From: Fibrobacter sp. UWB13
GTDB lineage: Bacteria; Fibrobacterota; Fibrobacteria; Fibrobacterales; Fibrobacteraceae
DNA length: 64,000 nucleotides
NCBI RefSeq assembly: GCF_900177805.1
Contig: NZ_FXAX01000005.1
Location: forward strand, 1-64,000
Direction of reading: 5' to 3'
Position 1 is the first letter of the stretch. Each line of letters begins with the position of its first letter. The translations under genes were made by a program, and so were the position numbers. Positions 59,632 through 64,000 of the stretch are shown one piece after another. The notes below the pieces were generated by a model. That model had not been told where the DNA came from. It ran no database searches and saw only the letters and a program-made list of their open reading frames with translations.

Positions 59632-61047
59632 ATGAGTTTGAAGAAAACTTTTTCAGGGATTGCACTTGGTGCAGCCCTTCTTGGCGCAGGTATATCAAGT
59701 ACCTTTGCTGCAGACGAAACATTAAGATCCCTTGCAGATAAAAACGGCATCTACATCGGAGCGATTCTGAACTCGCAGTGGTTTGGCGGCGGCCTGCCCG
59801 GCAATTACGAACAAATCCACAAGCAGCAATTCAACATCGTCGTTGCCGAAAACGAGATGAAATTCGACGCCACCGAACCGCAAGAAGGAAGATTCAATTA
59901 CAACAATGGCGACAAGATGGTCCGTTACGCACAGCAAAACGGCATGCGCGTCCGTGGCCACGCCCTCGCCTGGCACAGCCAAGTTCCGGGCTGGGTGAAC
60001 AACTACAAGAACGACAAGCAGAAACTGCTCAAGGTGCTCAAGAATCACATCCAGAATGTGGTCGGGCACTGGAAAGGCAAAGTAGCCGAATGGGACGTGG
60101 TGAACGAAGCTATCAGCAACAACGAGCCCCAGTGGCGCACCGGTTCCGTTTGGTACCAGGGCATCGGTCCGGAATTCATCGACTCCGCATTCGTATGGGC
60201 TCACGCTGTAGACCCGGATGCAGAACTCTGCTATAACGACTACAATCTCGAACAGGGAGTCAATCCGAAAGCAAAGGCCGGCTTCTTGCTGGAGCAGGTG
60301 AAGCGCTGGGTTGCAAACGGCATTCCTATCCATTGCGTGGGTTCCCAGACGCATGTGGAAGACACCACCACCGACAAGCACTTTATCGGTTCGCCGGATA
60401 GCCTCCGTTCCCTCGCCAAGGAACTTGCAAAACTCAATGTCAAGCTGAAAATCACCGAACTCGATATCGGATTCAAGAGCGGCATCAATGTCAGTAAGAG
60501 CGACCTTGAACGTCAGGGACAAACATTCCGTCAATACCTCGACATCATTCTTGAAGAACCGAATGCGGACACGTATCTGATTTGGGGCGTATCTGATAAA
60601 TGGAGCTGGCTTGGCGGCCTGAACAGACAAAAAGGACTTATCTACGACGACAATTTGAAACCGAAGCCGGCATTTGACAGCATCTTGGTAAGACTCCAGA
60701 CTTACGAACCGCCGAAGGATTCTGTCAAGCAGGATTCCGTTGCACAAGACTCCATCAAGAAGGATTCAACAGTCAAGGATTCTACGAAAAAGGACTCCAC
60801 CGACGCTATCGGAAAAATCACTAGCAGAACGACGATGTCCGCATACGTTGCTGGCCGCACACTGTTCGTAACGGGAACGAGCGCCAAGACCGCAAAGGTC
60901 GACTTGTTCGATATGCAAGGACGTCCCGTGTTCAGCACCAAGAGCGAAAATGGAATGGTGGACTTGAAGGATATTGCCGAAGGGCTTTACGTAGTACAGA
61001 TACGCTCAGGGAGCAACAAGATAGTGCAACGCGTAAACGTAAAATAA
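59632..61047 (+). CDS. secreted endo-1,4-beta-xylanase, family GH10
   Basis: Hydrolyses xylan outside the cell. 471 residues: signal peptide (about 1-26), GH10 barrel (about 30-360), linker and T9SS-like tail. GH10 motifs are 'VVAENEMKFDATEP', 'VRGHALAWHSQVPGW', the acid/base Glu in 'EWDVVNEAIS' (near 159) and the nucleophile in 'KITELDIGF' (near 277), with 'LIWGVSDKWSW'. The linker has a five-residue repeat (VKQDS, VAQDS, IKKDS, TVKDS, TKKDS). AAGGAG lies before the ATG. It is close in sequence to the second GH10 gene at 62869, so the two probably arose by duplication. Confidence 0.95.
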   Translation: MSLKKTFSGIALGAALLGAGISSTFAADETLRSLADKNGIYIGAILNSQWFGGGLPGNYEQIHKQQFNIVVAENEMKFDATEPQEGRFNYNNGDKMVRYAQQNGMRVRGHALAWHSQVPGWVNNYKNDKQKLLKVLKNHIQNVVGHWKGKVAEWDVVNEAISNNEPQWRTGSVWYQGIGPEFIDSAFVWAHAVDPDAELCYNDYNLEQGVNPKAKAGFLLEQVKRWVANGIPIHCVGSQTHVEDTTTDKHFIGSPDSLRSLAKELAKLNVKLKITELDIGFKSGINVSKSDLERQGQTFRQYLDIILEEPNADTYLIWGVSDKWSWLGGLNRQKGLIYDDNLKPKPAFDSILVRLQTYEPPKDSVKQDSVAQDSIKKDSTVKDSTKKDSTDAIGKITSRTTMSAYVAGRTLFVTGTSAKTAKVDLFDMQGRPVFSTKSENGMVDLKDIAEGLYVVQIRSGSNKIVQRVNVK

Positions 61048-61153: not shown

Positions 61154-61747
61154 TTATTCAACGCATCTCACGGAGAACCCGAAATTTTTGGGTTTCATCA
61201 TGTAGCTGAAGCCCATGGATTTTGAGGAGAGGTACCAGACCGAAGCATCGCCCCCTTCGGTGCTTGAGCTCCAGAAAAACGCGAACTTATTTTCATTGCC
61301 GTAAGTGCCATCGTCGAACATATTGCCGGCGGGCATCGCGCTGAACTTGAGCGTATCATTGCCATTAGTTTCGCCGGACCAACCATAATTCGCCTTGATC
61401 AAGTAACCGGCATTGAAGTCACCACCGGCAGCTTTCCAAAGACTTTCAAATTCTTCATTCGTCGGCAAATGGAAACCTGCGGGGCATGCCTTTTGCGCGG
61501 CTTCCCACGTGTAGAGGCGACCGTAAACCATGCAATTATCTTCATCCTCCCTATAGCAAGTGCTACCGGGCATCGAGTAGTTTAAGTTGTCCGCCATCCA
61601 CTTGCGACCGTCAATGACGACGGTGCGATATTTCTGTTTATCGCGAGCGTCCTTGATTTCGTTTTTCTTTGCTTTGGGGGCTGCAAGAGATGCGCTAGAG
61701 GCGACAAGTACAATGACAAGAGCTGATGATAGATAATTCATATTCAT
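61154..61747 (-). CDS. Fibrobacter succinogenes major paralogous domain protein
   Basis: 197 residues with a signal peptide (about 1-23, 'LVASSASLAAP'). The TIGR02145 domain follows: 'RTVVIDGRKWMADNLNY', 'CYREDEDNCMVYGRLYTWE', 'ACPAGFHLPTNEEFESLW', 'GYLIKANYGWSGETNG' and 'SVRCVE' at the end. The family is greatly expanded in Fibrobacter and secreted or surface-bound; its function is unknown. This short copy has a single domain and no Ser-rich linker. Confidence 0.92.
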   Translation of the reverse strand: MNMNYLSSALVIVLVASSASLAAPKAKKNEIKDARDKQKYRTVVIDGRKWMADNLNYSMPGSTCYREDEDNCMVYGRLYTWEAAQKACPAGFHLPTNEEFESLWKAAGGDFNAGYLIKANYGWSGETNGNDTLKFSAMPAGNMFDDGTYGNENKFAFFWSSSTEGGDASVWYLSSKSMGFSYMMKPKNFGFSVRCVE

Positions 61748-61844: not shown

Positions 61845-62747
61845 TTACTTTTCTACGGCGATGAGCTGGGCTTCGCCCTGACCCGGGAGCGGCTTGAAAA
61901 TTTTCACGTTCGTCTGCGTAGCCGGGCCACCAAAAGCCTTCATTTCACAAACGAAGAGATAGTTCATGCCTGCGACCACCTGCGAAGAGACGCTGAGCGG
62001 TTTCAAGTTAAGGTAAGCGTAATCCTTCGTTGCTTCGGCAAATGCTGCGGAATCGTCAGCCGTAAGCGGGCGCTGTCCAGAATACCCACCCATGAGCATT
62101 TCATCGGTCTTGCCCGTTGCGAGGTCTGCAAAGAAACCTTCGACCTCACGAGTTGCAGTTTCAATGCCCTTTTCTGCATTGATTCGCTTGTTAGAAATTC
62201 CGTAAGCGAGCGTCACGTTGGCGTTCGGTTCAAGAGTCTTGAGTTCTGCGGCACTCGCCTTGCGACCACCACTGCCGTAAGTGCAGAACGGCACCACGAC
62301 CTTGCCACTCAAATCATTAGCATCCAAAAACGAGTAAATCGGCGGAGTGAACGTTCCAAACATAATCGGGTAACCGATGAACACCGTATCGTACTTTGCC
62401 ACATCGAGTTTTGCATTCACGAGAGCGGGCCACTGTTTAGATTCACGTTCTGCACGGACGGCAGCAATCGTGCTATCGTAAGTGGACGGGTACGGTTTTG
62501 CAAGCGTCAGTTCAAATTCATCGGCATTGCGAGCGCTCTTGAAAATTTGCGCCAGCTTTTTTGTGGCACCCGTCTGCGAATAATAAACCACCACCGACTT
62601 TGCAGATTTTACCGCAGGTGCATTTTGCACTTCAGACTGAGCCGTTTTAGATTCAGCCTTGGGCTGTTCTTCATTGCAACCGGCAAACATAGCCGAAACA
62701 GCAACAACAGATGCCATTGCAAGTGATAATTTAAACTTACGGGACAT
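61845..62747 (-). CDS. lipoprotein with flavodoxin-like domain and C-terminal stefin/cystatin-like domain
   Basis: 300 residues from the ATG at 62745-62747 (MSRKFKLSLAMASVVAV, lipobox Cys24), with GGAGG at a good distance. The longer frame at 62777 is not needed. A flavodoxin_4-like domain spans about 50-210 ('VVVYYSQTGATKKLAQIFKS', 'FIGYPIMFGTFTPPIYSFLD', 'VVVPFCTYGSGGRKASAAEL'). The end (about 217-300) follows the stefin order: MLMGGYSGQRPLTADD with a Gly pair, an alpha-helix, the QVVAG loop at 256-260 in 'SVSSQVVAGMNYLFV', and 'VKIFKPLPGQGEAQL' with the stefin-type Leu-Pro second loop. It may be a redox or NAD(P)H-linked lipoprotein that also inhibits cysteine proteases. Confidence 0.85.
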   Translation of the reverse strand: MSRKFKLSLAMASVVAVSAMFAGCNEEQPKAESKTAQSEVQNAPAVKSAKSVVVYYSQTGATKKLAQIFKSARNADEFELTLAKPYPSTYDSTIAAVRAERESKQWPALVNAKLDVAKYDTVFIGYPIMFGTFTPPIYSFLDANDLSGKVVVPFCTYGSGGRKASAAELKTLEPNANVTLAYGISNKRINAEKGIETATREVEGFFADLATGKTDEMLMGGYSGQRPLTADDSAAFAEATKDYAYLNLKPLSVSSQVVAGMNYLFVCEMKAFGGPATQTNVKIFKPLPGQGEAQLIAVEK

Positions 62748-62868: not shown

Positions 62869-64000
62869 ATGAATAAACATCGTATTTCAAAATTTATACT
62901 CAGTGCCGCAATTATAGGCGCAGGCTTTGTAAACGCCAATGCCGCTGACGAAACCATTCGTGAGCTCGCCAAGGAGCGCGGCCGCTTTATCGGCACCATT
63001 TTGAACAGCGAATGGTTCAACGACGATATCGAACCTGAATTCGAAGAAATCCACAAGACACAATTCAACGTGGTCGTTGCCGAAAACGAAATGAAGTTCG
63101 ACGCCACCGAACCCAAAGAAGACGAATTCAACTTCGAAAAGGGCGACAAGATGGTCAAATACGCACAAGCCAACGGGCTCCGCGTTCGCGGACACGCTCT
63201 CGCCTGGCACAGCCAAGTCGCCAACTGGGTGAACAACTACAGCGGACAAAAAGAAAAGCTACTCGCCGTCCTCAAAAACCATATCACCAAAGTCGTCGGC
63301 CACTGGAAAGGTCAAATCGCCGAATGGGACGTAGTGAACGAAGCCGTCAATGACGATTACAATGCCGACTGGCGTTCCACAAACTCTGCATGGTACGAAG
63401 GCATCGGCGCAGAATTCCTGGACTCCGCATTTGTCTGGGCACACGAAGCCGACCCGGATGCAGAACTCTGCTACAACGACTATTCCATCGAATGGGGCCT
63501 CCGCGAAGGTTCCAAGGCAAGCTTTGTCGTAGAACAGGTCAAGCGCTGGAAAGCAAACAACATTCCTATCACTTGCGTAGGCACACAAACCCACATCGAA
63601 ATTGCACACGAAACAACTCCGCAAAACGTGCGCGCCCTTGCCAAAGCACTTGCAGATCTCGGCGTGACGTTGAACATTACCGAGCTCGACATTGGATTCC
63701 CGAAGGGTTCAGCAGGCAAGCTCACCGAAGCAGACTACGCCAAACAAGGGCACTTGTACCGCCAATTCATGGACGTATTCCTCGAAGAGCCGAACATGGG
63801 CGAATTCGTGATTTGGGGATTGACCGATGCACACAGCTGGCTCGACGAACAGCAGGGCAAGACCGAAGGACTTCTTTACGACAAGCAATACAAACCGAAG
63901 CCCGCATACGATAGCGTCATGGCAAGCCTTAAGGCACACCCTGCTTCTGAAGTTAAAACTCCGTACCCGGAATCTGTTCTCAATCCGCCTAAAGATTGCG
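62869..64000 (+). CDS. secreted endo-1,4-beta-xylanase, family GH10, cut by the window end
   Basis: The gene starts MNKHRISKFILSAAIIGAGF with an AAGAGG site before the ATG and runs off the right edge without a stop (about 377 codons seen). The signal peptide ends near 'VNANAA'. GH10 motifs are 'VVAENEMKFDATEP', 'VRGHALAWHSQVANW', acid/base Glu in 'EWDVVNEAVN' (near 157) and nucleophile in 'NITELDIGF' (near 271), then 'VIWGLTDAHSW'. After the barrel (about 365) a linker begins ('HPASEVKTPYPESVLNPPKD'), so further domains are expected. It is a close paralogue of the GH10 gene at 59632, with two leftward genes between them. Confidence 0.93.
   Translation, partial: MNKHRISKFILSAAIIGAGFVNANAADETIRELAKERGRFIGTILNSEWFNDDIEPEFEEIHKTQFNVVVAENEMKFDATEPKEDEFNFEKGDKMVKYAQANGLRVRGHALAWHSQVANWVNNYSGQKEKLLAVLKNHITKVVGHWKGQIAEWDVVNEAVNDDYNADWRSTNSAWYEGIGAEFLDSAFVWAHEADPDAELCYNDYSIEWGLREGSKASFVVEQVKRWKANNIPITCVGTQTHIEIAHETTPQNVRALAKALADLGVTLNITELDIGFPKGSAGKLTEADYAKQGHLYRQFMDVFLEEPNMGEFVIWGLTDAHSWLDEQQGKTEGLLYDKQYKPKPAYDSVMASLKAHPASEVKTPYPESVLNPPKDC

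Follow-up and report, generated by a model that had tools for sequence, protein, structure and literature searches.

A minus-strand gene of Fibrobacter sp. UWB13 encodes a predicted lipoprotein in which a flavodoxin is joined to a C-terminal domain of the stefin type. This fusion is near-core in the genus Fibrobacter. Thus, a known inhibitor fold is found in a new architecture and is near-core where it had been thought absent. The host genus comprises important cellulose-degrading gut bacteria, and the stefin, here fused to a redox protein, has its contact points under strong purifying selection.

Gene and Protein Layout

The DNA analysed, here called the window, is a stretch of 64,000 nucleotides (assembly GCF_900177805.1, contig NZ_FXAX01000005.1, positions 1–64,000, forward strand). 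The open reading frame starts with ATG at 62747, ends with the stop codon TAA at 61847–61845 on the minus strand and comprises 300 residues. The following features were assigned in window coordinates.

61845..62747, minus strand: whole gene, flavodoxin-stefin predicted lipoprotein, 300 aa (open reading frame; orthologues found in 68 of the phylum's genomes)
62676..62747, minus strand: predicted signal peptide (residues 1–23) and Cys24, lipobox F-A-G-C (orthologue alignment; presumed lipidation site)
62601..62675, minus strand: variable linker, residues 25–49 (alignment; low confidence, pLDDT <50)
62211..62597, minus strand: Flavodoxin_4 domain core, residues 51–179 (PF12682, E 4e-19; PDB matches; loop conservation)
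62097..62210, minus strand: end of the flavodoxin fold, helix and flexible hinge, residues 180–217 (model: helix 194–210, low pLDDT 216–220)
61848..62096, minus strand: stefin-like domain, residues 218–300 (start approximate), a helix followed by a four-strand sheet (profiles and predicted fold)
62085..62096, minus strand: N-terminal contact segment L218-M219-G220-G221, at the site of the N-terminal Gly of stefins and cystatins (Gly220 kept in 55/56)
61968..61982, minus strand: first hairpin loop QVVAG, residues 256–260 (orthologue conservation)
61884..61889, minus strand: second hairpin loop Leu287-Pro288 in IFKPLP (residues 283–288; IFKPLP ends at 61884) (orthologue conservation)

The signal peptide and the lipobox, with FAG preceding Cys24, were read from an alignment of 29 orthologues in which Cys24 is unchanged. 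Lipid anchoring in the cell envelope is therefore predicted from the sequence. The original prediction for this DNA had named an N-terminal Gly pair, an exact QVVAG and an IFKPLP motif; all three were located in the translation (the Gly pair at residues 220-221, QVVAG at 61968–61982). The flavodoxin half and the lipobox were borne out by PF12682, the PDB matches and the orthologue alignment. The same holds for the fusion of both domains on one exported, predicted lipoprotein.

Stefin Identity of the C-Terminal Domain

The proposed assignment of the C-terminal domain to the stefin-type cystatins was followed up with profile and structure comparisons. Cystatin (PF00031) was the sole Pfam family matching the domain (E 0.0031, 18.2 bits), with a score below the curated cut-off of 22.2 bits. 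All 20 of the 20 relatives scanned against Pfam matched Cystatin and nothing else. Sibling domains elsewhere in the genus, found with the same profile in proteins that hold two or three copies, clearly exceeded the Pfam cut-off (L049 with 1.9e-13 and 50.9 bits, L050 with 1.5e-10 and 41.6 bits). An NCBIfam search with the domain gave no match. The search of its own whole genome with PF00031 also gave no match at E 0.001; the control genomes were silent too, hence this result is uninformative.

Using the single domain as query against the PDB, phmmer ranked stefin A first (E 0.001). A profile built from the Fibrobacter domains aligned with stefins over the full length, including the N-terminal stretch GG-S-E-x-R-P-x-T-x-E, with E values of 2e-5 to 8e-5. 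After distant bacterial domains had been added, the resulting wider bacterial-stefin profile matched Fasciola stefin (6e-11), potato multicystatin (1e-7) and stefin A (4e-7) in the PDB.

With a full-length model as query, Foldseek listed flavodoxins and other flavoproteins only, and the domain was therefore modelled alone. The AlphaFold model (pLDDT 87.5, pTM 0.79) exhibited the cystatin fold, a helix packed on an antiparallel sheet of four strands, with QVVAG and Leu-Pro placed in two hairpins. The best 14 Foldseek matches of this model were all stefins or cystatins. VIA-align returned Z values of 9.9 for Dictyostelium cystatin A2, 9.6 for CsStefin-1 and 9.5 for stefin B taken from its complex with papain (1stf). 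Consequently, the comparison of the predicted fold with stefins, which the original prediction had suggested, came out in its favour.

Alternatively, a small alpha/beta domain of other ancestry might have arrived at a similar short motif by convergence. The Pfam score under the cut-off fits such a reading, as do Z values of a middling size that is common for small domains. Against it stand a match that is collinear from one end of the domain to the other (GG-S-E-x-R-P-x-T, helix, QVVAGTNY, VFKxLPG), the profile E value of 6e-11, the siblings above the Pfam cut-off and top structural matches that are all cystatins, and we regard convergence as very improbable. Stefin homology, as judged from sequence and model, is secure because of the profile scores, the sibling domains, the predicted fold and the structural ranking, although each single-sequence score is modest. 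Export with a lipobox differs from the usual cytosolic location of eukaryotic stefins; this location is a usual trait and does not define the fold. Therefore, we speak of a stefin-type domain and not of a typical stefin.

Comparison with Known Inhibitors

The Fibrobacter domain resembles the type 1 cystatins (stefins, MEROPS I25A), among them human stefins A and B, the secreted Fasciola stefin 6i1m, Clonorchis CsStefin-1 and Dictyostelium cystatin A2, in its fold, motif order, N-terminal Gly, QxVxG and Leu-Pro loop, and no disulphides are expected. In contrast to the mostly single-domain, cytosolic eukaryotic stefins, it has a helix segment several residues shorter than that of animal stefins, follows a flavodoxin in the chain and is exported within a predicted lipoprotein. 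Chagasin-type inhibitors (ICP, MEROPS I42) have an unrelated immunoglobulin-like fold. They are also bacterial inhibitors of papain-family proteases (PMC2784779), and no likeness to the Fibrobacter domain was seen.

Eukaryotic stefins usually lack a signal peptide, with exceptions in protists (PMC2784779). Bacterial stefins, found in silico, are rare acquisitions for which defence against host proteases was proposed (PMC2784779). They share stefin motifs with the Fibrobacter domain, and fusions are precedented by a stefin-chagasin protein in Bacteroides fragilis and, in Polaribacter, by a triplicated cystatin that is also fused (PMC2784779). Their occurrence, as described by Kordis and Turk in 2009, is patchy (17 genera in 8 phyla; PMC2784779), whereas the Fibrobacter domain is joined to a flavodoxin throughout most of one genus. 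The earlier statement that a few bacterial cystatins are known is right, though this survey had scored Fibrobacteres as negative (PMC2784779). A literature search for "flavodoxin" with "cystatin domain" found no paper on such a fusion, in agreement with the view that the combination is undescribed. No assay of any bacterial stefin was found in the literature searched, and the main texts of F. succinogenes proteomics papers do not name the protein.

The Flavodoxin Half

The N-terminal half matched PF12682 (Flavodoxin_4) with 69.1 bits against a cut-off of 24 (E 4e-19). The closest solved structures are the Bacteroides flavoproteins 4j8p (5e-17), 4ici and 3klb, the latter with FMN (3.5e-12). These chains share 25–31% identity and the same loops with the flavodoxin half and, unlike the Fibrobacter fusion, carry no stefin domain. 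The FMN-loop motifs SQ(T/N)GxT (57–62), PIMFG (127–131) and FCTYGSGGR (154–162) are kept in 56 sequences, in which S57, Q58, G60, T62, P127, F130, G131, F154, C155 and G158–R162 are invariant. These loops point to FMN binding.

Cys155 in the presumed FMN loop (window 62283–62285) was present in 56/56 sequences. Cys267 in the stefin domain (window 61947–61949) is unpaired and was found in 55 of the 56 orthologues; it has no role in stefins. A disulphide between Cys155 and Cys267 joining the two domains is possible.

A second flavodoxin family of the genus, 33% identical, was also observed (e.g., G067 C9 79755–80153 and G116 C45 1995–2393). Its open frames comprise 482–502 aa, and it is therefore probably fused to another domain.

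Conservation of the Predicted Inhibitory Surface

Conservation was determined in a set of 56 distinct orthologues. Gly220 is kept in 55/56. In the first loop Gln256 is found in 55/56, Val258 in 54/56 and both Ala259 and Gly260 in 56/56, so that QxVxG is kept in 55 of the 56 when one sequence with M at the middle V is counted. The second hairpin retains Leu287 in 56/56 and Pro288 in 55/56. The mean entropy of this tripod (Gly220, QxVxG 256–260, Leu287-Pro288) was 0.22 bits and that of all other domain positions 0.69 bits (permutation p 0.0035). The inhibitory loops are thus preserved across the genus, as the original prediction had them in the window protein. Median pairwise dN/dS values were 0.072 (stefin) and 0.087 (flavodoxin domain), which for the stefin means strong purifying selection.

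Ahead of the Gly pair, hydrophobic residues prevail (Leu218, Met219). Cystatin C carries Leu-Val at the matching place. A sister-genus orthologue (L053 5001–5891, minus strand) has KDSAG in place of QVVAG and an altered Gly pair, with the remainder of the domain kept. Either function was lost naturally in this copy, or the change hints at a further role of the domain.

Distribution and Evolution of the Fusion

Counting open frames of 294–370 aa with strong matches, the fusion was found in 68 of 168 genomes of the phylum. A search of other Fibrobacter genomes had been suggested for the original prediction, and 65 of the 80 examined carry the fusion; two further carriers belong to a sister genus and one to another family. 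A scan of 84,980 species, which detects close relatives only and thus leaves room for distant fusions outside Fibrobacterales, revealed 31 loci, all from Fibrobacter or Fibrobacterales and many from ruminant forestomachs.

In the genomes compared the flavodoxin orthologue was never seen without the stefin. In genomes without the fusion (e.g., G007, G043 and G075, 99% complete), the flavodoxin orthologue is absent too, and the only flavodoxins present are distant ones with 31–36% identity. The distances of the stefin and flavodoxin domains correlate (Mantel r 0.79, 0/2000 permutations); this tracking is consistent with one old fusion event. The copy from the other family (L051, genome G091) has a flavodoxin domain that is 70% identical and nearer to Fibrobacter than the sister-genus copies are. 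Either horizontal transfer or a mis-binned contig would account for it.

Stefins also occur apart from the flavodoxin. Two Fibrobacter genomes encode lipoproteins with one, two or three stefins and without a flavodoxin, which were detected by profile search at the following positions.

L047 4968–5375, minus strand: Fibrobacter stefin lipoprotein without flavodoxin
L048 4284–5354, minus strand: Fibrobacter stefin lipoprotein without flavodoxin, stefin joined to a FISUMP (Fib_succ_major) domain
L049 4869–6197, plus strand: Fibrobacter stefin lipoprotein without flavodoxin, three stefin copies
L050 4866–5474, plus strand: Fibrobacter stefin lipoprotein without flavodoxin

Because of this variation in copy number and the one combination with FISUMP, the stefin is, as far as sequences tell, a reused module of exported Fibrobacter proteins. 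In several of these four proteins a Cys pair flanks the QxVxG hairpin.

Proposed Function and Target

The explanation that we consider reasonably probable combines an FMN-type flavodoxin, exported and lipid-anchored, with a stefin that plugs C1A proteases. After export and anchoring in the cell envelope, the Gly segment at the N-terminus would form a wedge together with the QVVAG and Leu-Pro loops, and this wedge would fill the active-site cleft of cysteine proteases of the papain family (C1A). By analogy with the stefin family this plugging would be of the wedge type and reversible. Most likely the blocked protease would be foreign, originating in rumen ciliates that feed on bacteria, in plant tissue taken up by the animal, in the host itself or in further microbes. 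Its inhibition would shield surface or envelope proteins of the cell, and the flavodoxin would act as an anchored redox module.

A foreign target is favoured because most carriers have no detectable papain-family gene. Of the 67 Fibrobacter genomes surveyed, only 7 have a detectable C1A-like gene; among the 57 that carry the fusion the number is 6. Divergent genes could have escaped these counts. The target is probably a protease of a ciliate, plant, host or competitor, and the evidence favours none of these candidates over the others. Plant papain-like proteases occur in ingested tissue. Entodinium caudatum, a strongly bacterivorous rumen ciliate, expresses abundant cathepsins B and F (PMC6925433).

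That the stefin guards against, or regulates, a secreted papain-like peptidase of the bacterium itself seems quite improbable. The genome of strain UWB13 does encode L059, an exported protein of 660 aa, part of which resembles papain and contains Cys, His and Asn residues as candidates (PF00112, 22.0 bits). However, this gene occurs in 7/67 Fibrobacter genomes, compared with the fusion in 57 of the same 67, and six C1A-bearing genomes of the sister genus g7 contain no stefin. Since C1A genes are rare among carriers, an own target cannot account for the conservation, barring divergent C1A genes that escaped detection. L059 (G000 C1 109966–110838) also showed a weak F5/8-type C match.

Instead, the stefin domain may by now serve the flavodoxin in a structural or partner-binding role (dimerisation, redox-partner docking or stability), with protease inhibition lost. 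Such a role would agree with the strict association of the flavodoxin orthologue with the stefin, with the parallel evolution of the two domains, with the retention of the domain lacking QxVxG in L053 and with the nearly invariant Cys267 and Cys155. It is unlikely in view of the protease-contact positions, which vary less than the remaining positions of the domain (p 0.0035), and of the flavodoxin-free copies in the genus, in which the loops are mostly kept.

Some observations count against the preferred reading as a protease inhibitor. L053 and the near-invariance of Cys267 belong here too, as do the short helix and the low Pfam score. Slow evolution also counts against this reading, being unlike what one expects of an arms race against a diverse predator. 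For the shielding of the surface in particular, ciliate cathepsins act mainly inside food vacuoles, and a lipobox by itself is no proof of surface exposure. A bolder version appears doubtful to us, namely a genus-defining, surface-displayed, flavin-coupled stefin that would neutralise cathepsin-type proteases from plant tissue or predatory ciliates, possibly in a redox-linked manner, as a bacterial counterpart of parasite stefins. If the target is a ciliate or plant protease, the inhibitor would bear on rumen protein turnover and predation. With a small domain and the natural motif-loss relative L053 as control, the question of the role of bacterial stefins becomes directly testable.

Genomic Neighbourhood and Stefins Elsewhere

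A conserved operon partner was looked for at 36 loci and none was found. A FISUMP lipoprotein lies within reach at 13/36 loci; otherwise the gene stands alone. In the window, the neighbour at 61154–61747 (minus strand) encodes a small exported FISUMP protein (PF09603, 3e-26). The flanking genes at 59632–61047 and about 62870–64000 (both plus strand) read like putative secreted GH10-type xylanases.

The search of a phage collection for the stefin yielded no credible one. IMG/VR contigs L097–L100 and L102 (2980–3249) contain free-standing stefin genes. Their products are 74% identical to an uncharacterized small protein encoded near transposase genes on the Bradyrhizobium plasmid pNK6d, and possibly represent a mobile bacterial stefin. 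Another contig of the viral collection (L101 3–5252, plus strand) encodes a very large repeat-rich protein that ends with a stefin domain. Double and single stefins were observed on plasmids of Aureibacter tunicatorum and Persicobacter sp. (L060 3635–4255 and L061 3959–4273, both plus strand), where a signal peptide is not obvious.
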